Shown here: one piece after another, positions 3,427 through 12,239 of the stretch
Layout of the letters: each line of letters opens with the position of its first letter
Position numbering within the stretch: the first letter of the stretch is position 1
Assembly: GCF_022385335.1 (NCBI RefSeq)
Contig: NZ_CP092431.1
Span: 8,246,001-8,310,000, forward strand
Source: Streptomyces deccanensis
GTDB lineage: Bacteria > Actinomycetota > Actinomycetes > Streptomycetales > Streptomycetaceae
Reading direction: 5' to 3'
Length of the DNA stretch: 64,000 bases
Notes under the pieces: generated by a model
The model's database searches: none
What the model was told of the DNA's origin: nothing
Seen by the model: the letters and a program-made list of their open reading frames with translations, nothing else
Position numbers and translations under genes: made by a program

Positions 3427-3978
3427 ATGACGGTGCGCGAAGATCCCGAGTTGTCGCAGCTGACCTGTCCCGACGAGGTCACCGGTGATCTCCGACAGGA
3501 GATCGTCGACTGTTGGGGAGAAGTCGCCAACGCGGGCGGCGCGGTGCTCGCCACCGAGTTCCCGCCGCTGCCGGTGAGCGCACGGGACGTCGCCCCCGTG
3601 GTCGACGGGCTCGTCCGCCGACTGCACCCGGAGCACGGCAGGCTGCTCGTCGCGACCGTCGGCGGTTCGCTCGCGGGCTGGCTGATCCTGCGCCGGGAGC
3701 AGCACCCACTGAGCCTGCACTGCGGCACGGTCAACCACGTCCAGACCCGCCCCCGCCACCGCGGCCGGGGCGTCGGCGTCGCGCTGATGCGGCGCGCCCA
3801 TGACATCGCGCGGGACGAGATGGGTCTGGAGCGGCTGACGCTCTCCACCCGGGGCGGCGTCGGGCTGGAGGACTTCTACCGCAGGATCGGCTGGGTGGAG
3901 GTCGGTCGCTGGCCCGGCGCGCTGCGCATCGCGCCGGGCGACGACCGGGACGCCATCCTGATGAGCCTCACCCTCTGA
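3427..3978 (+). CDS. GNAT family N-acetyltransferase
   Basis: 183 aa, single acetyltransferase domain. Motif A with the acetyl-CoA pyrophosphate loop is RPRHRGRGVGVALM around residues 108-121, followed by the helix RAHDIARDEMGLERLTL. The C-terminal FYRRIGWVEVGRWPG corresponds to motif B. The acceptor is unknown; the size and the N-terminal extension resemble small-molecule or amino-acid acetyltransferases. The ATG at 3427 has a weak GAGG site. It ends about 200 bases before the PLP-enzyme operon, on the same strand, so co-transcription is possible but not shown. Confidence 0.85.
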   Translation: MTVREDPELSQLTCPDEVTGDLRQEIVDCWGEVANAGGAVLATEFPPLPVSARDVAPVVDGLVRRLHPEHGRLLVATVGGSLAGWLILRREQHPLSLHCGTVNHVQTRPRHRGRGVGVALMRRAHDIARDEMGLERLTLSTRGGVGLEDFYRRIGWVEVGRWPGALRIAPGDDRDAILMSLTL

Positions 3979-4173
3979 GCCTGCCCGTCCGGGCCTGCCC
4001 CTCTGAGTTCAAGTCCCGCCCCGACCGTCCCGTTCCAGCCGTCCGGCATCCGGAAACAGTCGGAAACGGCCGCCCGTCCCCCATGCCGGATTGAGAGGGG
4101 CCGGTGCTGGTTACGGTCGTTATGACTGTCTGCCGACACCGGTACGTACTCCTCGGCGGGAGGAACCGCTGGT

Positions 4174-5634
4174 ATGAGCGACGACCCGTTGTACCTGGAG
4201 CCACGGCTGGCACCGCCCACAGCGGCGCTCCTGGAGTCGGCTCCGCTCCTCCACACCCTCGTGGACGCGCTCGGCTCACCCCTCAACATCGTCCTGCCGG
4301 ACGGGATCGCCGAGAACGTGCGGCGGTTCCGTTCCGTCTTCGACCGCCACCATCTCGGCGGGCGGATCTTCTTCGCCCACAAGGCCAACCGGTCCAGCTC
4401 CCTCGTCCGCCGGCTCACCACGACGGACGCCGCCCTGGACGTCGCCTCGCTCCGTGAACTCCAGCACGCGCTCGGGTCCGGCTTCACCGGCGACCGGATC
4501 ATGGCGACGGGCCCCAAGGACCCGGAATTCCTCTGGCTCACCGCACGCTGCGGGGCCGTCCTCAACGTCGACGGCCCCGAGGAACTGCGACAGGCCGCCG
4601 ACCTCGTCCGCACCCACGAACTGCCGCCGCTGCGCGTGCTGTTACGCCTCTCCGGGTTCGAGGCGACAGGCGCCGCACGGCTCTCGCGCCGAAGCCGCTT
4701 CGGCACCCCGGTGAAATCCCTGCACCAGTTGCTCGACGTCCTCGACCGCCACCGGCGGGTCCTGGAGCCGATCGGCGTCGGCTACCACCTCGACACCACC
4801 GGCCTCGACGAGAAGGCCGCCGCGCTCGACGGATGCCTGCGAGCCATGGAGGAGCTGCGGATCCGTGGTTTCCACCCGCGTGTCATCGACGTCGGCGGCG
4901 GCTTCGGCATCGACTACCTGGCGCACGCGGCCCAGTGGGAGCGCTACACCAGCGAACTCACCGGCGCCGTCATGGGCAGCCGCCCACCCCTGACCTGGGG
5001 CGGCCACGGCTACGGCCTACGGGCCGAGAACGGCACCCTCAGGGGCGCGCTGAGCCTCTACCCCGCCCATCGCCCCGTCGCCGGGGCCGCGTACCTCGAC
5101 GCACTTCTCTCGCACCCGTCACCGACCCTGGGGCGCCCGCTGGGCGTCCTGCTGCTGGAGAGCCTGTACGACCTCTACGCCGAACCCGGCCGCGCCCTGG
5201 TCGACCAGTGCGGCCTCACCCTCGGCAGGGTCCTGGAGGTCCGGCCCGCGGACACCGGGCCGCATCTGGTGCGCCTCGCGATGAACGCGGGGGACGTCGG
5301 CCTGGAGGCCCACGGAGTGCTGCTTGACCCCCTGGTCCTGCCCCGCGACACGACCTCCCCCACGGGCGCCGTCGCCGTCCACCTCATGGGAAACCTCTGT
5401 CTGGAGGCGGATCTGATCACCCGTCGCACCGTCCACCTGCCCCGGCTCCCGCGCCCCGGCGACCTCCTCGCCTTCGTCAACACGGCGGGCTACTGCATGG
5501 ACTTCGGCGCCACCCACGCCCAACAGCAGCCCGTCGCACGGAAGGTGGCCGTCCACCGGCAGGACGGACAGTGGCGGTGGTGTCTGGACGAGGAGTACTG
5601 GCCGCTCGGCCGCACGGGGGGTTCGCAGCCATGA
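4174..5634 (+). CDS. Y4yA family PLP-dependent decarboxylase/racemase-like enzyme (fold type III)
   Basis: 486 aa, alanine-racemase/diaminopimelate-decarboxylase fold. The PLP lysine is in IFFAHKANRSS (Lys70), the glycine-rich phosphate loop in VIDVGGGFGIDY (about residue 240), and the C-terminal barrel carries EPGRALVDQCG and the late aromatic segment NTAGYCMDF. This matches the Y4yA family named after a rhizobial plasmid protein; fold III relatives such as SbnH decarboxylate an amino acid in staphyloferrin B synthesis. The ATG at 4174 follows GGGAGG. It is the first gene of a tight operon and overlaps the next by 4 bases (ATGA). The amino-acid substrate is not predictable from sequence alone. 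Confidence 0.85.
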   Translation: MSDDPLYLEPRLAPPTAALLESAPLLHTLVDALGSPLNIVLPDGIAENVRRFRSVFDRHHLGGRIFFAHKANRSSSLVRRLTTTDAALDVASLRELQHALGSGFTGDRIMATGPKDPEFLWLTARCGAVLNVDGPEELRQAADLVRTHELPPLRVLLRLSGFEATGAARLSRRSRFGTPVKSLHQLLDVLDRHRRVLEPIGVGYHLDTTGLDEKAAALDGCLRAMEELRIRGFHPRVIDVGGGFGIDYLAHAAQWERYTSELTGAVMGSRPPLTWGGHGYGLRAENGTLRGALSLYPAHRPVAGAAYLDALLSHPSPTLGRPLGVLLLESLYDLYAEPGRALVDQCGLTLGRVLEVRPADTGPHLVRLAMNAGDVGLEAHGVLLDPLVLPRDTTSPTGAVAVHLMGNLCLEADLITRRTVHLPRLPRPGDLLAFVNTAGYCMDFGATHAQQQPVARKVAVHRQDGQWRWCLDEEYWPLGRTGGSQP

Positions 5635-6950
5635 GGTACGACACCATCACCGACGCCATCGGCGACACACCGCTGGTCCGTATCGACCCGGCCGTCCACG
5701 GCCTGCGCAACATCGACCTCTACGCCAAGCTGGAGATGCTCAATCCCTTCGGGTCGCTCAAGGACCGGGCCGCGTGGAGCATGACCCGGCACGACATCAC
5801 CGGAGCCAAGGAGCGCGGCGAGACGATCGTGGAGCTGTCCAGCGGCAACACCGCCAAGGCCCTGGCCCTCATCGCCGGGCTGCACGGACTGCCGTTCAAG
5901 AGCGTCACCAACCGGATGCGTGTCCCCGAGATCAAGGACCTGCTCCTGCTGCTCGGCGCCGAGATCGAGGAACTCCCCGGCCAGACCGAATGCCTCGACC
6001 CGACCGACACCGAGGACCCCCTGACCCTCTTCCACCAGCGGCTGAACCGCCCGGGCGGCGCCCACCTGCACACCGACCAGTACTTCAACGCCCTCAACAC
6101 CGAGGCCCACGCCACGGGAACGGGCCCGGAGATCATCGCCGACCTGGACGGCCGCGCCCCCGACTATTTCATCGCCTGCGTGGGCACCGCCGGATCGTCC
6201 ACCGGCGTCGCCAGGGCGCTGCGCGCGCACGACCCGGCGGTGCGCGTCGTCGGACTGGTCGGCCGGAAAGGGGACTTCATCCCCGGCATCCGTACCGTCG
6301 ACGAGGTGCAGGAGGTCGGCATCTTCGACCCGGCCACCTACGACACGCTGGAATCGGTGAGCGCCGACGAGGCCATCGACGGGATGCTCACCCTGCTCCG
6401 CCGCTGCGCCCTGCTCGCCGGCCCGACCGGCGGGGCGGCCTACCACGGTGCCGTCCGTCATCTGGCCGCCGTGGACGCCGAGTTGACGCAGCGCAAGACA
6501 GCCGTCTTCATCGTCTGCGACCGGGCGGAGAGTTACCTCGGCTACGTCCGGCAGCGCCGCCCGGACCTGCTGGGCCGTCCTCCGGCGAGGAACGCGGCCA
6601 CGGCCCCGACCGACAGCGAGATCCGTTCGGTGAAGGTCGTCGACGTCGACGAGGCCCAGAAGTGGATCGCCGAGCAGCGCCCCCTCGTGATCGACCTGCG
6701 CGGCCCGTTCGCGTACGCGGCGCTCCACATCGACGGCTCGGTGAACATCGTCGACGAACTCTTCGAGGAACTCGTGCGGGGCGGGCTGCCGTTCAGCAAG
6801 CGGCAGCCCGTACTGCTCGCCTGCCCGGTCGGCGAGAAGTCGGCCCGGTACGCGGCCCTGCTCACCCGGATGGGCCACCCCGACGTGCGCAGTCTGGCCG
6901 GCGGCGTCATCGCCTGGCGGGACGCGGGCGCACCCCTGGTGCGTGACTGA
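5631..6950 (+). CDS. Cysteine-synthase-like PLP enzyme (fold II) fused to a C-terminal rhodanese domain
   Basis: 439 aa. Residues 1-330 are a beta-family PLP domain: Lys44 in NPFGSLKDRAAW, the substrate loop SSGNTAKALA, the phosphate-binding GTAGSSTGVA, and GPTGGAAYHG. Residues about 340-439 are a rhodanese domain (VIDLRGPFAYAALHIDGSVN) whose active-site loop CPVGEKS keeps the sulfur-carrying Cys398. The fusion suggests that sulfur held as a persulfide on the rhodanese is delivered to the PLP-bound aminoacrylate, or that the domain moves sulfur to a partner. Related fold II enzymes such as SbnA make diaminopropionate precursors. The start overlaps the previous stop (ATGA); the next gene starts 1 base after this stop. 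Confidence 0.85.
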   Translation: MRYDTITDAIGDTPLVRIDPAVHGLRNIDLYAKLEMLNPFGSLKDRAAWSMTRHDITGAKERGETIVELSSGNTAKALALIAGLHGLPFKSVTNRMRVPEIKDLLLLLGAEIEELPGQTECLDPTDTEDPLTLFHQRLNRPGGAHLHTDQYFNALNTEAHATGTGPEIIADLDGRAPDYFIACVGTAGSSTGVARALRAHDPAVRVVGLVGRKGDFIPGIRTVDEVQEVGIFDPATYDTLESVSADEAIDGMLTLLRRCALLAGPTGGAAYHGAVRHLAAVDAELTQRKTAVFIVCDRAESYLGYVRQRRPDLLGRPPARNAATAPTDSEIRSVKVVDVDEAQKWIAEQRPLVIDLRGPFAYAALHIDGSVNIVDELFEELVRGGLPFSKRQPVLLACPVGEKSARYAALLTRMGHPDVRSLAGGVIAWRDAGAPLVRD

Positions 6951-6951
6951 G

Positions 6952-8151
6952 ATGACCGATCCCGCCACGGAGCTGGCGGAACTGGCGGCGTGGCAGCGGC
7001 CGTTGCGCGCCCAGTTCCCGATCATCGCCGCGCACCCCGACCTGGCCTACCTGGACAGCGCGGCCACCAGCCAGAAACCGCGGCGCGTCCTGGACGCCGT
7101 ACAGACGTATCTGACCACGACCAACGCCAACGCGGGCCGGGGGTCCTATCCCTGGGCCAACACCACCACCGCGCTGGTGGAGGGCACCCGGGAGCGGATC
7201 AAGGAGTTCCTCGGGGACCCCGACCCGGACCGGTCGTCGGTGCACTTCACCAGCGGGACCACGGCGGGGCTGCGCACGATCGCCCTGGACTGGCTGCCCG
7301 CCCTCCTCACCGACGGGGACGAGATCGTCGTCCCGCACGCCGACCACCAGGCCAACCTGTCGCCGTGGCTGGAGGCCGCGGAGCTGCTGGCCGGACAGGG
7401 CGTACGCGTCCGCGTCCGGCCGCTGCCGTACCAGGCCGGATCCGGCGACTACGATCCGCGAGCGCTCGCCGCGCTCGTCGGCCCCCGTACCCGCTTCGTG
7501 GCCGCCACCCACGTCCACCACGTCTACGGCGTCGACATGAACGTGCACCGGCTCCGGCAGGTCGTCGGGCCGGAGGTGCCGATCTGTCTGGACGCCGCGC
7601 AGAGCGTCGGGCACGTGCCGGTCTCGATGGCCGAACTCGACGTCGACTTCGTGGTGTTCTCCGGCCACAAGACGATGGCCCTGCCCGGTTCCGGCGCGGT
7701 CTGGGCACGGGGCCGGCGCGGACCGGCCCTCCGGCCCGGCGGCTGGAGCGGTACACCCAACACGGTCGGTGTCGCCGGGCTGGCGGCGGCGCTCGACTGG
7801 CTGGCCGCCGCCGGGCCGGACCGGATCGAACGCTGGACCGTGGCGCTGACCTCCCTGCTGACCGACGGGCTGTCCCGGATGGACGCCTACGAGGTGCTCG
7901 GCTGCCGGACGAGCCTCCGGGCCGACACCGAGGTGCAGCGGCGCCGCAGTCTCGTCACCTTCCGGCACCGCGAGATCGGCTCGCAGGACCTCGGCTTCAT
8001 CCTCTTCAGCCGGGGGTTCATGGTGCGCACCGACGGCCACTGCCAGGCGGGCCGCGACGCGGAGGACGGCTCGGTACGGGTGAGCCTGCACGTGCACAAC
8101 ACCCCTGAAGAGATCCAAGAACTGCTCACCACCCTCGCCACTCTGCAATGA
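6952..8151 (+). CDS. SufS-like cysteine desulfurase / class V aminotransferase (fold I)
   Basis: 399 aa. The N-terminus LAYLDSAATSQKP, the aromatic-stacking HADHQANLSPW, the PLP-phosphate segment DAAQSVGHVPV and the Schiff-base lysine in SGHKTMALPGSG (Lys240) all match the SufS/CsdA group. Near the C-terminus RTDGHCQAG places Cys364 where SufS carries its persulfide cysteine, so true desulfurase chemistry is plausible. Unlike SUF operons there is no sufU, sufB or sufD here. The partner is more likely the rhodanese-fused enzyme just upstream. ATG 6952 was chosen; a GTG at 6943 overlapping the previous gene is possible. Confidence 0.85.
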   Translation: MTDPATELAELAAWQRPLRAQFPIIAAHPDLAYLDSAATSQKPRRVLDAVQTYLTTTNANAGRGSYPWANTTTALVEGTRERIKEFLGDPDPDRSSVHFTSGTTAGLRTIALDWLPALLTDGDEIVVPHADHQANLSPWLEAAELLAGQGVRVRVRPLPYQAGSGDYDPRALAALVGPRTRFVAATHVHHVYGVDMNVHRLRQVVGPEVPICLDAAQSVGHVPVSMAELDVDFVVFSGHKTMALPGSGAVWARGRRGPALRPGGWSGTPNTVGVAGLAAALDWLAAAGPDRIERWTVALTSLLTDGLSRMDAYEVLGCRTSLRADTEVQRRRSLVTFRHREIGSQDLGFILFSRGFMVRTDGHCQAGRDAEDGSVRVSLHVHNTPEEIQELLTTLATLQ

Positions 8152-8199
8152 TTTCCATTAACAGAAGCAGGTTCCGAAGACGGGGGCAGTGCGACAGGC

Positions 8200-8955
8200 A
8201 TGGGTCTGAGTACGACGACAGCGGCGCGATGGGTGGAGCGCTGGGAACGCCAGCAGCAGTTGTACGCGGTCGACCGCGAGGAGAGGTTCGAGGTCATCGC
8301 GGATCTGGTCGAGCTAGTGACACGCGACCGTGCCGCGCCGCTCGTCCTCGATCTGGGCAGCGGCCCGGGCTGCCTGGCGGCGCGCCTCGCCGCCCGCCTG
8401 CCGACGGCCGACGTGCTCGCCGTCGACGCGGACCCGCTTCTCCTGGAACTGGGCAGCGCCCACTACGGCCCCGCCCTGCGCTATGTCCGCACCGTGATCG
8501 GTGAACCCGGCTGGCTCGACGCGCTCGCCCTGGAGCGCCCCGTCGACGCGGTGGTGTCGACCACCGCGCTGCACTACCTCGGCACGGAGACCCTGCGGGG
8601 CGTCTACCGGGACCTCGCCGGGCTGCTGCGGCCCGGCGGCATCCTGATCAACGGCGACCACATCAGCCCGGACTCCACGAAGGTGTCCGAGCTGGCGATC
8701 GACATCGGCCGCCGCCGCAGCGAACGCACCGCCGTGCCGCTCGTCGAGGACTGGGACTCCTGGTGGGCCGGCGCCGCCGCCGACCCGGAACTCGCCCGGC
8801 TCCTCTCGCACCGCGCGGACACCGGACGCCCCCGCTGCGAGGGCAACGATCTGACCCTCTCCGGCCATGTCGCCCTGCTGCGCGACGCGGGGTTCGACCA
8901 CGTCGGCCCGGTCTGGCAGGTGGGCCCCAGCCACGTCCTGGCGGCCCTGCGCTGA
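8200..8955 (+). CDS. Class I SAM-dependent methyltransferase, last gene of the PLP operon
   Basis: 251 aa. The SAM-binding motif is VLDLGSGPGCLAARLA (about residues 49-64), the acidic ribose-binding residue is in VLAVDAD, and motif IV is VVSTTALHYL. This is the small-molecule methyltransferase pattern (UbiE/Tam-like) rather than a nucleic-acid enzyme, as NPPY is absent. It follows the desulfurase-like gene by 48 bases on the same strand and ends at a strong bidirectional terminator, so it probably completes the pathway by O-, N- or S-methylation. The substrate is unknown. Confidence 0.8.
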   Translation: MGLSTTTAARWVERWERQQQLYAVDREERFEVIADLVELVTRDRAAPLVLDLGSGPGCLAARLAARLPTADVLAVDADPLLLELGSAHYGPALRYVRTVIGEPGWLDALALERPVDAVVSTTALHYLGTETLRGVYRDLAGLLRPGGILINGDHISPDSTKVSELAIDIGRRRSERTAVPLVEDWDSWWAGAAADPELARLLSHRADTGRPRCEGNDLTLSGHVALLRDAGFDHVGPVWQVGPSHVLAALR

Positions 8956-9247: not shown

Positions 9248-10396
9248 TCAGGCGGGGTAGGCGTGGGTCTGGCTCGCCTTGACCGTCGCCCAGATCTCGC
9301 TGCCGGGGTGGAGGCCGAGTTCCGCCGCCGCGACGGTCGTCAGGTCGACGGCCAGGGGGAGCTCGCCGGCCAGGGCGGCGCGGATCTGGTCGCCGTGGGC
9401 CTCCATGCCGGTGACCTCGCAGTGCCAGAGGTTGCGGGCGCTGGAGCCGGTGGGCCGCTCCCGGTGGAGCGTGACGGCGCTGGGCGGGAAGGCGACGAAG
9501 ACCGGTCCGGTGAGGTCGTCGGCGGTGGTGAGGGTGGGGCCGGCCGGGAGACGGACCGAGTGGCCCTCCGCCTCGCCCCGGTAGAGGTTGAGGCCGACCA
9601 GGTGGGCGATGTAGTCGGTGCGCGGGCGGCGGGCGATGTCGGCGGGCGTGCCCTCCTGGACGATCCGGCCGTCCTCGATGACGACCAGCCGGTCGGCCAG
9701 GACCATGGCGTCCAGCGGATCGTGCGTGACGAGTACGGCGACGGCCTCGAAGTCGGCCAGATGGCGCCGGAGTTGGGCACGGATGTCGAGGCGGGTGCGG
9801 GCGTCGAGGGCGGCGAGGGGTTCGTCGAGGAGGAGCAGACGGGGACGGGTGGCCAGGGCGCGGGCGAGGGCGACACGCTGCGCCTGGCCGCCGGAGAGCC
9901 GCCGGGGCTTGCTTCCGGCGTGCGCGGCGAGACCCATCCGCTCCAGCCACTCCGCGGCCTGCGCCCGGGCCTCCGCCTTGCTCGCGCCGTGGCAGCGGGG
10001 GCCGAAGGCCACGTTGTCGAGGGCGGTGAGGTGGGGGAAGAGGAGATAGTCCTGGAAGACCACTCCGACCGGGCGCGACTCCGGCGGCCGACGGTCCAGC
10101 TCGGCGCCGTCCAGCCGCAGACGGCCATCGTCCGACAGGGGGACGAGTCCGGCGAGCGCCCTCAGCGCCGTCGTCTTGCCAGCGCCGTTGGGGCCGAGCA
10201 GCGCCACCACGTCGCCGGGCGCGGCGGTCAGCGTCACATCGAGGCGGAACGACGGGCCACGCTCGACGACGAGCCGGGCGTCGAGGCCCTCGCCGAACGC
10301 CGGGGCCGAGGCGGGAGTGGGGGGAGGCGCGGAGGCCGGGGGAGGTGCCGAGGCGGGGGCGGCGGCGTTGTCGGGGGTCTTCTCGGTGCCGGTCAT
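9248..10396 (-). CDS. modC: Molybdate ABC transporter ATP-binding protein ModC
   Basis: 382 aa. After a 40-residue Ala/Pro-rich N-terminal extension that is not typical of the family come the Walker A GPNGAGKTT (about 68-76), the Q-loop in VVFQDYLLFPHL, the signature RRLSGGQAQRVALARAL and the Walker B LLLLDEPLAALD with the switch histidine in VTHDP. A C-terminal TOBE-like domain (about residues 300-380) is where molybdate binds in ModC. It energises import with ModB and ModA. The start overlaps the modB stop by ATGA, so the two are translationally coupled. The gene ends near the shared terminator region. Confidence 0.92.
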   Translation of the reverse strand: MTGTEKTPDNAAAPASAPPPASAPPPTPASAPAFGEGLDARLVVERGPSFRLDVTLTAAPGDVVALLGPNGAGKTTALRALAGLVPLSDDGRLRLDGAELDRRPPESRPVGVVFQDYLLFPHLTALDNVAFGPRCHGASKAEARAQAAEWLERMGLAAHAGSKPRRLSGGQAQRVALARALATRPRLLLLDEPLAALDARTRLDIRAQLRRHLADFEAVAVLVTHDPLDAMVLADRLVVIEDGRIVQEGTPADIARRPRTDYIAHLVGLNLYRGEAEGHSVRLPAGPTLTTADDLTGPVFVAFPPSAVTLHRERPTGSSARNLWHCEVTGMEAHGDQIRAALAGELPLAVDLTTVAAAELGLHPGSEIWATVKASQTHAYPA

Positions 10397-11289
10397 GAGG
10401 CGGTCATCCATCGGTCGCGCAGTCCCGCCAGCACCGCGATCGACACGGCCAGCAGGACCAGGCTGAGGGCGATCGCCGCCTCCGGATCGTTCTGGAGGGC
10501 GAGGTAGACGGCGAGGGGCATGGTCTGGGTACGGCCGGGGAAGTTGCCGGCGAACGTGATGGTCGCGCCGAACTCGCCGAGCGCACGGGCCCACGCCAGC
10601 ACCGCGCCCGCCGCGACCCCGGGCGCGATCAGCGGCAGCGTGACCCGGCGGAACGCGGTGAACCGGGAGGCCCCCAGCGTGGCCGCGGCCTCCTCGTAGC
10701 GGGGGTCGGCGGCCCGTAGCGTGCCCTCCACGCTGATGACCAGGAACGGCATCGCCACGAACGCCTCGGCGAGCACGACCCCGGCCGTGGTGAACGGCAG
10801 GGTGATCCCGAACCAGTCGTCCAGCCACTGCCCGACGACCCCGTTGCGGCCGAGCGCCATCAGCAGCGCCACACCGCCTACCACCGGGGGCAGGACGAGG
10901 GGGAGGGTGACGAGGGCCCGTACGAGACCGCGTCCGGGGAAGTCGACCCGGGCCAGCAGCCAGGCCAACGGCACCCCGACGACCAGACTCACCGCCGTGG
11001 CCGCCGTGGCGCACACGAGGGACAGCCGCAGCGCCTGCCACACCTCGGGGCTGGTGAGCAGGTCGGGCATGCTGCGCCAGGGCGCCCTGATCAGCAGGGC
11101 GACGAGGGGGAGGACGAGCAGGACGAGGCCGATCAGCGCGGGCAGCAGCAGAGGGAGCGGGACACCCCCGCGACGCCCGCGCAGGGCCCCACCGCCGTGG
11201 ACGCGCCGGCGCCGCGGGCCCCCGCCGAGGGTGTCCGGGGCGTCGGCTTCCCTCGCGGGGGAGGAGGCGGAATCGGAGGGGGAGGTCAC
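10393..11289 (-). CDS. modB: Molybdate ABC transporter permease ModB
   Basis: 298 aa with five or six predicted membrane helices starting near residue 45, after a 44-residue Arg/Gly-rich cytoplasmic N-terminus. The EAA loop that contacts ModC is EEAAATLGASRFTAFRRVTLPLIAPG (split here only by position, about residues 200-225), followed by GEFGATITFAGN, which is highly typical of molybdate/tungstate permeases. It starts with GTG overlapping the modA stop (GTGA) and ends overlapping the modC start, a classic coupled operon. Confidence 0.93.
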   Translation of the reverse strand: MTSPSDSASSPAREADAPDTLGGGPRRRRVHGGGALRGRRGGVPLPLLLPALIGLVLLVLPLVALLIRAPWRSMPDLLTSPEVWQALRLSLVCATAATAVSLVVGVPLAWLLARVDFPGRGLVRALVTLPLVLPPVVGGVALLMALGRNGVVGQWLDDWFGITLPFTTAGVVLAEAFVAMPFLVISVEGTLRAADPRYEEAAATLGASRFTAFRRVTLPLIAPGVAAGAVLAWARALGEFGATITFAGNFPGRTQTMPLAVYLALQNDPEAAIALSLVLLAVSIAVLAGLRDRWMTAS

Positions 11290-12119
11290 GGCTTGAGGAA
11301 CCCGGCCTCGGTCAGCACCTTCTGGCCCTCGGCGGACCGCACCAGTGCGATGAACGCCTTGGCGGTGCCGGAGTTCTTCGACTCCTTGAGCAGGGTGATC
11401 GGGTAGTCGTTGATGGCGTCGGCGGACTCGGGGAACTCCACGCCCTCCACCTTCTCACCGGCCGCCTTCACATCGGTCCGGTAGACGACCGCCGCGTCGG
11501 CCTCCTTCAGCACCACCTTGTTGAGCGCGGACTTCACGTCCTCCTCGTACGACACCGGCGTCAGCTTCAGCTCGCTCGCGTCGAGCGCCTTCTTTGCGGC
11601 CGCGCCGCACGGCACGGCCTCGTCGCAGAGCACGACCTTCAGGCCGGGGTCGGTCAGGTCCTCGAGGGAGGAGATCCCGTCCGGGTTGCCGGGGAGGGTG
11701 GCGATCTCCAGCTGGTTGCGTACGAAGGTCTGAGGGGTGCCGGAGGCGTCACCGGCCTCGGTGACGACGGCCATGGTCCTGGGGCTGGCGGAGGCGAAGA
11801 CGTCCGCCGGGGCGCCACCGGTGATGCCGGCGGCGAGCGCGTCGCTGCCGCCGAAGCTGAACGTCACCTTCGTCCCGGGGTGCTCCTTCTCGAACCGCTC
11901 GCCCAGCGTCGTGAAGCTCTCCTTGAGTGAGGCCGCCGCGAAGACGATGACCTCTCCGGAGAGCTCTCCCGCGCCGGCGGGCCCCGACTGCGCGGAGGAG
12001 CCGGAGTCGGAGGAACCGCAGGCGCTCAGGACCAGCAGGGCGGCGGCACCGGCCCCGGCTGCCCGCAGGGCCCGCGTGCTCCGACGAGTGCGACGGCTCC
12101 GGCGTACGGAACGGGTCAT
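11286..12119 (-). CDS. modA: Molybdate-binding lipoprotein ModA
   Basis: 277 aa. Basic N-terminus, hydrophobic stretch, then the lipobox VLSACG with the lipidated Cys34, so it is anchored to the outer face of the membrane. The mature part begins a periplasmic-binding fold typical of ModA: GEVIVFAAASLKESFTTLG, then TFSFGGSDALAAGI and the anion-binding region GAPADVFASAS. The start at 12119 follows GGGAG; an upstream in-frame start at 12194 would add an implausible hydrophilic leader. First gene of modABC. Confidence 0.93.
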   Translation of the reverse strand: MTRSVRRSRRTRRSTRALRAAGAGAAALLVLSACGSSDSGSSAQSGPAGAGELSGEVIVFAAASLKESFTTLGERFEKEHPGTKVTFSFGGSDALAAGITGGAPADVFASASPRTMAVVTEAGDASGTPQTFVRNQLEIATLPGNPDGISSLEDLTDPGLKVVLCDEAVPCGAAAKKALDASELKLTPVSYEEDVKSALNKVVLKEADAAVVYRTDVKAAGEKVEGVEFPESADAINDYPITLLKESKNSGTAKAFIALVRSAEGQKVLTEAGFLKP

Positions 12120-12239
12120 CACGGTCCACTCCCTCTGGTCTGCGCTGCGCTGATGATTCTGCCGCAAGTGCCAGGCAGAAGTCATCAGGGGCATCGCACA
12201 AGCCGGGGTTCTCCTCTTCTCGGCATGGCATGTGCGTTC

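Follow-up and report, generated by a model that had tools for sequence, protein, structure and literature searches.

Fold II and fold III enzymes dependent on pyridoxal 5'-phosphate (PLP) are encoded side by side in two described systems, the staphyloferrin B pathway (SbnA/SbnH) and the rhizobial Y4yA-Y4xP operon, and the Y4yA-type gene group of rhizobia was termed enigmatic in a passage of a 2014 report (PMC3973906). Zur-controlled small molecules form a second point of reference. Partial texts of two reports describe [S,S]-ethylenediaminedisuccinate (EDDS) of Amycolatopsis japonicum as a zinc-repressed, Zur-controlled chelator (PMC9252823, PMC6103462), and the same portion of the second names the Zur-controlled metallophore genes of coelibactin in Streptomyces coelicolor (PMC6103462). 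Here we analysed a 64-kb stretch of Streptomyces deccanensis DNA (the window, 8,246,001-8,310,000 of the 10.1-Mb single-contig genome), which carries a four-gene cassette for a fold III decarboxylase, a CysM-like fold II enzyme fused to a rhodanese, a SufS-like class V PLP enzyme and an S-adenosylmethionine (SAM)-dependent methyltransferase. The gene set, its conservation, a motif and the neighbouring genes were computed, and together they suggest that the cassette probably has a role in zinc limitation; for its product to be a zinc-binding small molecule, the case is about evenly balanced. The zinc link of the cassette is new in this analysis.

Conservation and zinc-related context of the cassette

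The order decarboxylase, fusion, desulfurase, methyltransferase was kept in 42 of 43 loci (the window, two records from a plasmid collection and 40 fetched regions, with one relative present twice as L009 and L072; L numbers are our locus labels), and the flanks differed between most lineages. The remaining locus, L053, had no methyltransferase of the cassette family after the desulfurase. Agreement of this extent, in gene order and in the identity of all four genes at 42 loci, puts the four-gene set far beyond chance. An earlier reading of the window, made from the sequence only, had taken the genes for one unit and proposed a locus comparison as the check, and this comparison bears it out. 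No fifth gene common to all 43 loci was found, which agrees with that reading's remark that no synthetase of the nonribosomal peptide synthetase (NRPS)-independent siderophore (NIS) type is visible, the rest of the 64-kb window not having been scanned for such enzymes.

The fusion is encoded in 94 of 392 Streptomyces genomes (E <= 1e-100; the window's own genome included), and the plasmid collection yielded two relatives above 60% identity, both on large linear Streptomyces replicons. A fusion search of 396 genomes of the phylum gave matches in only 2 of 236 genera, and a later named scan with a Micromonospora fusion as the query showed a wider spread, with 68 loci in Micromonospora, Actinoplanes, Paractinoplanes, Couchioplanes, Streptoalloteichus, Actinokineospora, Hoyosella, Millisia, Streptomonospora, Kitasatospora, Nocardia, Streptomyces and others. 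The 64 of these in which our own gene caller recovers the fusion are called the named loci below. Family labels rest on BLAST clustering, except at loci checked by Pfam or models (e.g. L263, L286, L289, L294).

The published S. coelicolor Zur motif is the 7-1-7 palindrome tGaNNatSatNNtCa, as given in the portion of the source consulted (PMC5472717). A strict first Zur-box pattern found only one site among the upstream regions, so that a relaxed consensus was needed, and boxes were scored as matches out of 15 to a relaxed Zur consensus of our own. At the junction between desulfurase and methyltransferase, a site of at least 12/15 was present in 63 of 65 loci, compared with 13 of 373 control junctions and 0.5% of shuffles; examples are TGGAAACCGTTTCCA from the sister clade and TGATAACCGTTTCCA. 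In the two loci without it, L073 and L076, a box instead precedes the first gene (12/15 and 13/15). When one duplicate and the seven loci chosen for their zinc neighbours are set aside, 55 of 57 loci have the junction box, which takes the window's weaker form in 18 and other forms in 37. A matrix built from 11 boxes of L28 paralogues placed 63 of the 65 junctions beyond the 95th percentile of the controls, and 28 of them beyond the 99th. Boxes before the first gene were also enriched, at 13/15 or better in 8/65 loci versus 24/738 controls (p 0.003) and, among the named loci, in 14/64 versus 27/522 at 12/15 or better (p 3e-5) and in 6/64 versus 17/522 at 13/15 or better (p 0.03), although these p values overstate independence because the loci are related. 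Two window-type loci of Nocardia, L151 and L152, had near-canonical boxes. In the window, the site lies 42 bases ahead of the methyltransferase start and overlaps the desulfurase stop; in the reverse orientation, TGGAAATCATT matches the L28 box of L051 over 11 bases, and the whole 64 kb holds only three sites of at least 12/15, this one included. The locus thus has a 7-1-7 box, in weak form in the window's copy, and Zur binding is predicted.

Zinc-related genes were counted as ZnuA, ZnuB, His-rich proteins, COG0523, paralogues of S14, L28, S18 and L31, and the Fur family. In the fetched flanks, which reach about 8-10 kb at most, they were found at 16 of the 54 Streptomyces loci and at 16 of the 64 named loci, or 14 if two with a Fur-family gene alone are not counted. 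None was found in 20 control regions, each from a different one of these Streptomyces genomes and placed arbitrarily at roughly fixed contig fractions and not by random draw, or in 16 Nocardia loci of the N type described below. The zinc-neighbour count leaves out L209 and L220-L226, which had been chosen for their zinc neighbours or for a second fold III gene, as well as L009 and L072 (one locus) and L010, though L010 has zinc genes; the 54- and 64-locus sets overlap in two genomes (L058/L255 and L073/L259). The names of the small ribosomal paralogues and COG0523 in this list are presumptive and follow from their sequences. Such genes are included in the S. coelicolor Zur regulon table (PMC6103462). 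An S14 paralogue lay no more than 15 kb from the cassette in at least 15 of the 94 cassette genomes (12 among the 150 matches listed, with 291 genomes matched, and 3 from fetched loci), against 0.33 expected under uniform placement. In eight Micromonosporaceae loci (L227, L228, L230, L234, L247, L285, L292 and L294, the last checked by Pfam), genes for ZnuA, an ATP-binding cassette (ABC) ATPase and two permeases lie 3' of the cassette on the same strand, and a Fur-family gene adjoins the cassette in L232, L234, L273 and L294. Linkage to zinc uptake or homeostasis genes, as expected for a zinc metallophore, was therefore seen across loci and not in the window.

Several observations weigh against a zinc-limitation cassette with a zinc-binding product. 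No zinc gene was nearby in 38 of the 54 and 48 of the 64 loci, none was found in the window with 11 reference proteins, and the S14 paralogue of the window's genome lies 2.3 Mb from the cassette. The gene 3/4 palindrome had already been spotted when it was put to the test, the matrix test having used separately chosen L28 boxes. Outside its 11 matching bases the window box is weak and overlaps the desulfurase's Leu-Gln-stop codons; its matrix score of 12.3 exceeds the control 95th percentile (4.5) and falls short of the 99th (20.3), and upstream of the window's first gene the best site reaches 10/15, a background level. Among the named loci, in lineages other than the window's, a junction site of at least 12/15 within 260 bases of the desulfurase end was present in only 12 of 60, with 15 more at 11, several of these being Micromonosporaceae palindromes such as TGGAAATGGCTTCCG; in those 260 bases the box was mostly missing from Nocardia loci and from loci extended by ATP-grasp genes. 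The methyltransferase family is present in 41 of the 64 named loci, so it is less constant outside Streptomyces. In addition, the core cassette has no transporter.

A general operon for sulfur assimilation or persulfide stress, which would make cysteine or cysteine persulfide and lie near zinc genes through shared genomic islands, was weighed against these data. It would accommodate CysM-like and SufS-like enzymes together with a rhodanese, and a 2026 report states, in the part consulted, that cysteine synthase can use zero-valent sulfur (PMC13188885). Such an operon leaves unexplained the decarboxylase, the methyltransferase and the Zur-box-like palindrome inside the operon (63/65), and we consider it highly improbable. 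The sequence-only reading had called the cassette an unassigned pathway. No published account of the cassette appeared among the papers that a literature search listed, most subscription papers lying outside its reach. The description as unassigned can now be narrowed to a metal-related pathway, most likely a zinc-related one.

Beside the cassette in L061 (6413-6801), L065, L098, L101 and L102 stands a pair of genes for a His-rich protein of about 100 amino acids and an ArsR-type regulator, the latter preceded by Zur-like sites of 12-13/15.

Enzyme families and proposed chemistry

The four genes are closely packed (Table 1): the decarboxylase stop and the fusion start overlap as ATGA, one base separates the fusion stop from the desulfurase, and 48 bases separate the desulfurase from the methyltransferase. 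Coordinates and Pfam matches confirmed every detail of the order and junctions in the earlier reading. The start of the fusion is most likely the ATG at 5631 rather than the GTG at 5571 with which the mechanical open reading frame begins: among the 120 homologues listed, 439 amino acids is the most frequent length, and 72 loci preserve the ATGA overlap; with gene starts from our own gene caller, the decarboxylase/fusion overlap was -4 in these 72 tabulated loci and -1 in 8 more.

Table 1. Coordinates of the cassette and of other features in the window
Feature	Position	Strand	Basis
Fold III PLP decarboxylase, Y4yA/SbnH-like, 486 aa	4174-5634	+	Orn_Arg_deC_N PF02784, E 1.7e-22
CysM-like fold II PLP enzyme fused to rhodanese, 439 aa	5631-6950	+	Pfam, NCBIfam and PDB CysM matches
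Domains of the fusion: fold II; rhodanese	about 5646-6521; about 6645-6923	+	Pfam
SufS-like class V PLP enzyme, 399 aa	6952-8151	+	Aminotran_5 PF00266, E 2.3e-71; SufS alignments
SAM-dependent class I methyltransferase, 251 aa	8200-8955	+	Methyltransf_25 PF13649, E 7e-13
Zur-box-like 15-mer CTGCAATGATTTCCA (reverse TGGAAATCATTGCAG)	8143-8157		Published motif and matrix; one half canonical, the other weak
GNAT acetyltransferase, accessory frequent companion	3427-3978	+	Pfam PF00583
Inverted-repeat promoter-region motif GGTTACGGTCGTTATGACTGTCTGCCGACACCGG, also written GGTTACGGTCGTTATGAC(C/T)GT	4109-4142		Only in the window's close relatives

The catalytic residues are strongly conserved. Lys70 and Cys409 of the fold III enzyme are each present in at least 97% of 80 aligned relatives, Lys44 of the fold II domain and rhodanese Cys398 (439-aa numbering) in at least 97% of 81 aligned fusions, and Cys364 and His190 of the SufS-like enzyme in at least 97% of 77 aligned relatives; the two cysteines that the sequence-only reading had singled out, Cys364 and Cys398, are both among these conserved residues. 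The PLP lysine (Lys240) and Cys364 of the SufS-like protein align with those of solved SufS, and Cys364 lies in the C-terminal loop as in SufS-type enzymes, while the SufS NCBIfam model gives 236 bits against a cut-off of 475. His190 occupies the position of an active-site Asn in SufS, presumably Asn at position 175, and because of this replacement the substrate may not be plain cysteine. With a PALP domain (PF00291, E 4.6e-52), the PLP lysine and an SGNT loop, the second protein belongs to the fold II enzymes, and its Rhodanese domain (PF00581, E 4.3e-15, 56 bits) with the active-site Cys398 is predicted from sequence to be catalytically active.

Model scores gave a direction for the fold II chemistry. 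The window enzyme scored 164 bits to CysM, 161 to cysKM and 137 to SbnA, and two Nocardia fusion copies that were tested likewise preferred CysM-type models over SbnA, whereas three SbnA-like relatives showed the opposite preference (SbnA 222-236 bits, CysM 150-158). Since CysM and cysKM score above SbnA, a sulfur nucleophile is favoured over nitrogen. The window enzyme's scores all fall under the equivalog cut-offs shown (CysM 162-164 bits versus 394-413, SbnA 137 versus 350), and the enzyme is therefore filed as neither CysM nor SbnA.

In the scheme that we propose, cysteine or one of its derivatives would give up sulfur to the SufS-like enzyme, whose Cys364 would carry it as a persulfide and pass it to rhodanese Cys398. 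The fused CysM-like domain would form an aminoacrylate from an activated serine, to which the sulfur, or a thiol bearing it, would add; the fold III enzyme would strip the alpha-carboxylate and the methyltransferase would cap N, S or O. With ample zinc, Zur would repress the methyltransferase promoter, and the whole operon in some lineages. Most Streptomyces would use the product by itself, whereas at some other loci ATP-grasp ligases would join it to further residues, with dedicated transporters handling it. Sulfur transfer from a cysteine desulfurase to a rhodanese is reported for another system in the consulted part of one study (PMC8931425). Regulation is here read from sequence and chemistry from domains, so that Zur binding, relay, reaction order, product and zinc binding are predictions. 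We give the persulfide relay into the fold II site roughly equal chances of being right or wrong, and hold with the same middling confidence that a stand-alone zinc-limitation cassette leads to a small, sulfur-bearing, decarboxylated amino-acid zinc ligand. A further difficulty for this scheme is that plain sulfur transfer from cysteine to serine would be futile, so at least one substrate or acceptor must be unusual. More tentatively, and with less confidence than in these parts, the cassettes could represent a new class of Zur-controlled actinobacterial zincophores, in which the zinc-binding sulfur arrives by a protein-bound persulfide relay, followed by decarboxylation and methylation, with ATP-grasp peptide versions in Kitasatospora, Micromonospora, Millisia and others.

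The commonest companion of the cassette is a GNAT family, which 24 of the 65 window-type loci have, or 18 of 57 when the duplicate and the loci chosen for their zinc neighbours are set aside; at some loci it lies upstream, at others downstream and on the opposite strand. Some GNATs shield producers of amino-acid toxins; this and the presence of the family on either side of the cassette speak for an amino-acid antimetabolite that contains sulfur and from which the GNAT would protect the producer. We consider this explanation very unlikely, since 41 of the 65 loci have no GNAT and the zinc neighbours and the palindrome are left unexplained. The window's own copy is a possible tailoring or self-protection enzyme.

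Matches by PADLOC of the SufS-like enzyme to SspA/DndA and of the methyltransferase to mads_2 raised the candidate of a defence system; they were read as general family resemblance. Downstream of the cassette, on the opposite strand, an ABC transporter set lies at 9248-12194, perhaps of the molybdate type (TOBE domain); its ATPase matched several transporter models below cut-off, TIGR02142 among them, and its three genes have no relative in the other 42 loci of the 43-locus set.

Nocardia and ATP-grasp-extended versions

A related fusion was matched in all 59 Nocardia genomes searched. In the N-type loci examined (such as L150), the order is mostly desulfurase, a protein of about 428 amino acids with a C-terminal heavy-metal (HMA) domain that binds metal, decarboxylase and fusion, and no Zur boxes were found. 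Some Nocardia also carry a window-type cassette; in five of six such loci (L090, L151, L152, L153 and L155, not L154) a different methyltransferase gene adjoins it on the other strand. The HMA protein, which carries the motif MTCKHC (L091:5022-6092), has an N-terminal domain without a family match in Pfam or NCBIfam. Apart from the Nocardia protein itself, matches in a phylum search with its alignment covered only the C-terminal HMA part, and a structure model (mean pLDDT 66) gave matches to the HMA domain and weak unrelated ones. This protein first suggested copper or fluopsin-like chemistry, a candidate that was set aside.

In 10 of the 64 named loci (L250, L257, L263, L267, L270, L273, L274, L284, L286 and L289), the decarboxylase-fusion-desulfurase run continues into one or two ATP-grasp-type genes. 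Their fetched stretches hold genes of the major facilitator superfamily (MFS) in 6, an Opp-type ABC transporter in 7, SBP_bac_5-type proteins in 6 and the cassette's methyltransferase in 4, with MFS and Opp-type ABC together in L263, L267 and L289; L286, L263 and L289 were checked by Pfam. Export and import genes of the kind that a zinc metallophore pathway would need were found in these extended loci only. The first ATP-grasp protein of Kitasatospora L286 gives 209 bits to the dapdiamide synthase DdaF, below the cut-off of 840, and the second is weakly assigned, below Pfam cut-offs; in Millisia L289 a single 817-aa ATP-grasp protein replaces them. The window's genome has only weak relatives of these ATP-grasp proteins (best 28% identity). 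The layout of the extended clusters could be that of a peptide-like metallophore that is produced, exported and re-imported. These clusters and the Nocardia version with its HMA protein, like the zinc-homeostasis links, go beyond the sequence-only reading.

These two versions bear on whether the product leaves the cell. Bacillithiol buffers and chaperones zinc in Bacillus, and the cassette might similarly serve intracellular zinc sparing or buffering through a low-molecular-weight thiol or persulfide that is kept in the cell and is not a secreted zincophore. This would suit a conserved four-gene unit with neither a transporter nor a common fifth gene (43 loci, whose flanks were not annotated for transporters), as well as an N-type cassette found in 59/59 Nocardia genomes and paired with an HMA (MTCKHC) protein instead of an exporter. 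We nevertheless regard it as unlikely, because the ten ATP-grasp loci, with MFS genes in 6 and Opp-type ABC genes in 7, have the layout of a metallophore that is exported and re-imported, and because the N-type loci lack both zinc genes (0/16) and Zur boxes.

Relatives of the fold III enzyme are found in other metallophore-like settings. In NGR234, y4yA shares its operon with genes for an opine dehydrogenase and a siderophore synthetase of the IucA/IucC type. A second cluster, found in Streptomyces and Nocardia, brings together enzymes resembling SbnA, SbnB and Y4yA, in most cases along with a VioC/GntD-like hydroxylase, a MATE exporter and a NikA-like ABC importer. As the fold III relatives occur in a siderophore operon and in clusters of the SbnA/SbnB/MATE/NikA type, they too point to a metallophore. 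The second cluster, in which models were run on L210 and on the L209 fold II enzyme only, looks like an aminopolycarboxylate metallophore pathway; in L209 this cluster, the S14/L28 paralogues and the cassette all fall within one stretch of 20 kb. It was located at L209:1555-7249, L210:6933-12793, L212:6399-12291, L213:6974-12872 and L215:7183-12868, with the importer in view in four of these five.

From these relatives a nitrogen-based building block could also be argued, with the fold II enzyme making C-N bonds like SbnA, the fold III enzyme decarboxylating the adduct, and the desulfurase and rhodanese in an ancillary function, for example the maturation or protection of a thiol. The fold III relatives that accompany SbnA/SbnB-type enzymes or opine dehydrogenase in metallophore-like clusters speak for it, as does the DdaF-like ligase of the extended clusters, DdaF substrates being diaminopropionate conjugates. 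The cassette itself has no SbnB or opine dehydrogenase, its fold II enzyme is CysM-like rather than SbnA-like by model score, and the rhodanese cysteine is kept in almost all fusions, which makes this explanation distinctly unlikely. A sulfur-bearing zinc ligand is the reading that we carry forward.

Significance and comparison with known systems

If true, this reading gives a function to a gene set present in about a quarter of the sampled Streptomyces (94/392) and in many Micromonosporaceae, adds sulfur-based chemistry to zinc acquisition, and provides a fold II enzyme with the sulfur donor on its own chain. It also makes the role of Y4yA-family decarboxylases, and pathways hidden in actinobacterial Zur regulons, directly testable.

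Compared with staphyloferrin B synthesis and the Y4yA-Y4xP operon, the cassette has no NIS synthetase, SbnB or opine dehydrogenase, its fold II enzyme is CysM-like, and a rhodanese fusion, a SufS-like enzyme and a methyltransferase are added; the fold III and fold II enzymes are 32% and 36% identical to their NGR234 counterparts (Y4yA for the decarboxylase), and, with no fifth gene conserved in the 43 loci and a fold II score under the SbnA cut-off, the cassette is not placed among the staphyloferrin B-type pathways. Cysteine synthase B (CysM) provides the best PDB matches of the fold II enzyme (2jc3, E 3e-34; 3dki, E 3e-30), and the idea of a protein-borne sulfur donor is shared with the O-phosphoserine form from Mycobacterium tuberculosis, whose donor is the CysO thiocarboxylate; in the cassette the donor would instead be the persulfide of a covalently fused rhodanese. 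SufS/CsdA match the third enzyme in the positions of the PLP lysine and the catalytic cysteine and differ from it where His190 stands for the SufS Asn. The likeness to DdaF is limited to the extended cluster L286 and absent from the window's cassette. Among the Zur-linked systems, which were compared by description and not by genes from the portions of the sources consulted, EDDS resembles the cassette as a Zur-linked small-molecule pathway of an actinobacterium that starts from an amino-acid precursor, and coelibactin resembles it in having Zur-controlled metallophore genes in Streptomyces. EDDS contains no sulfur, and coelibactin is made by an NRPS.

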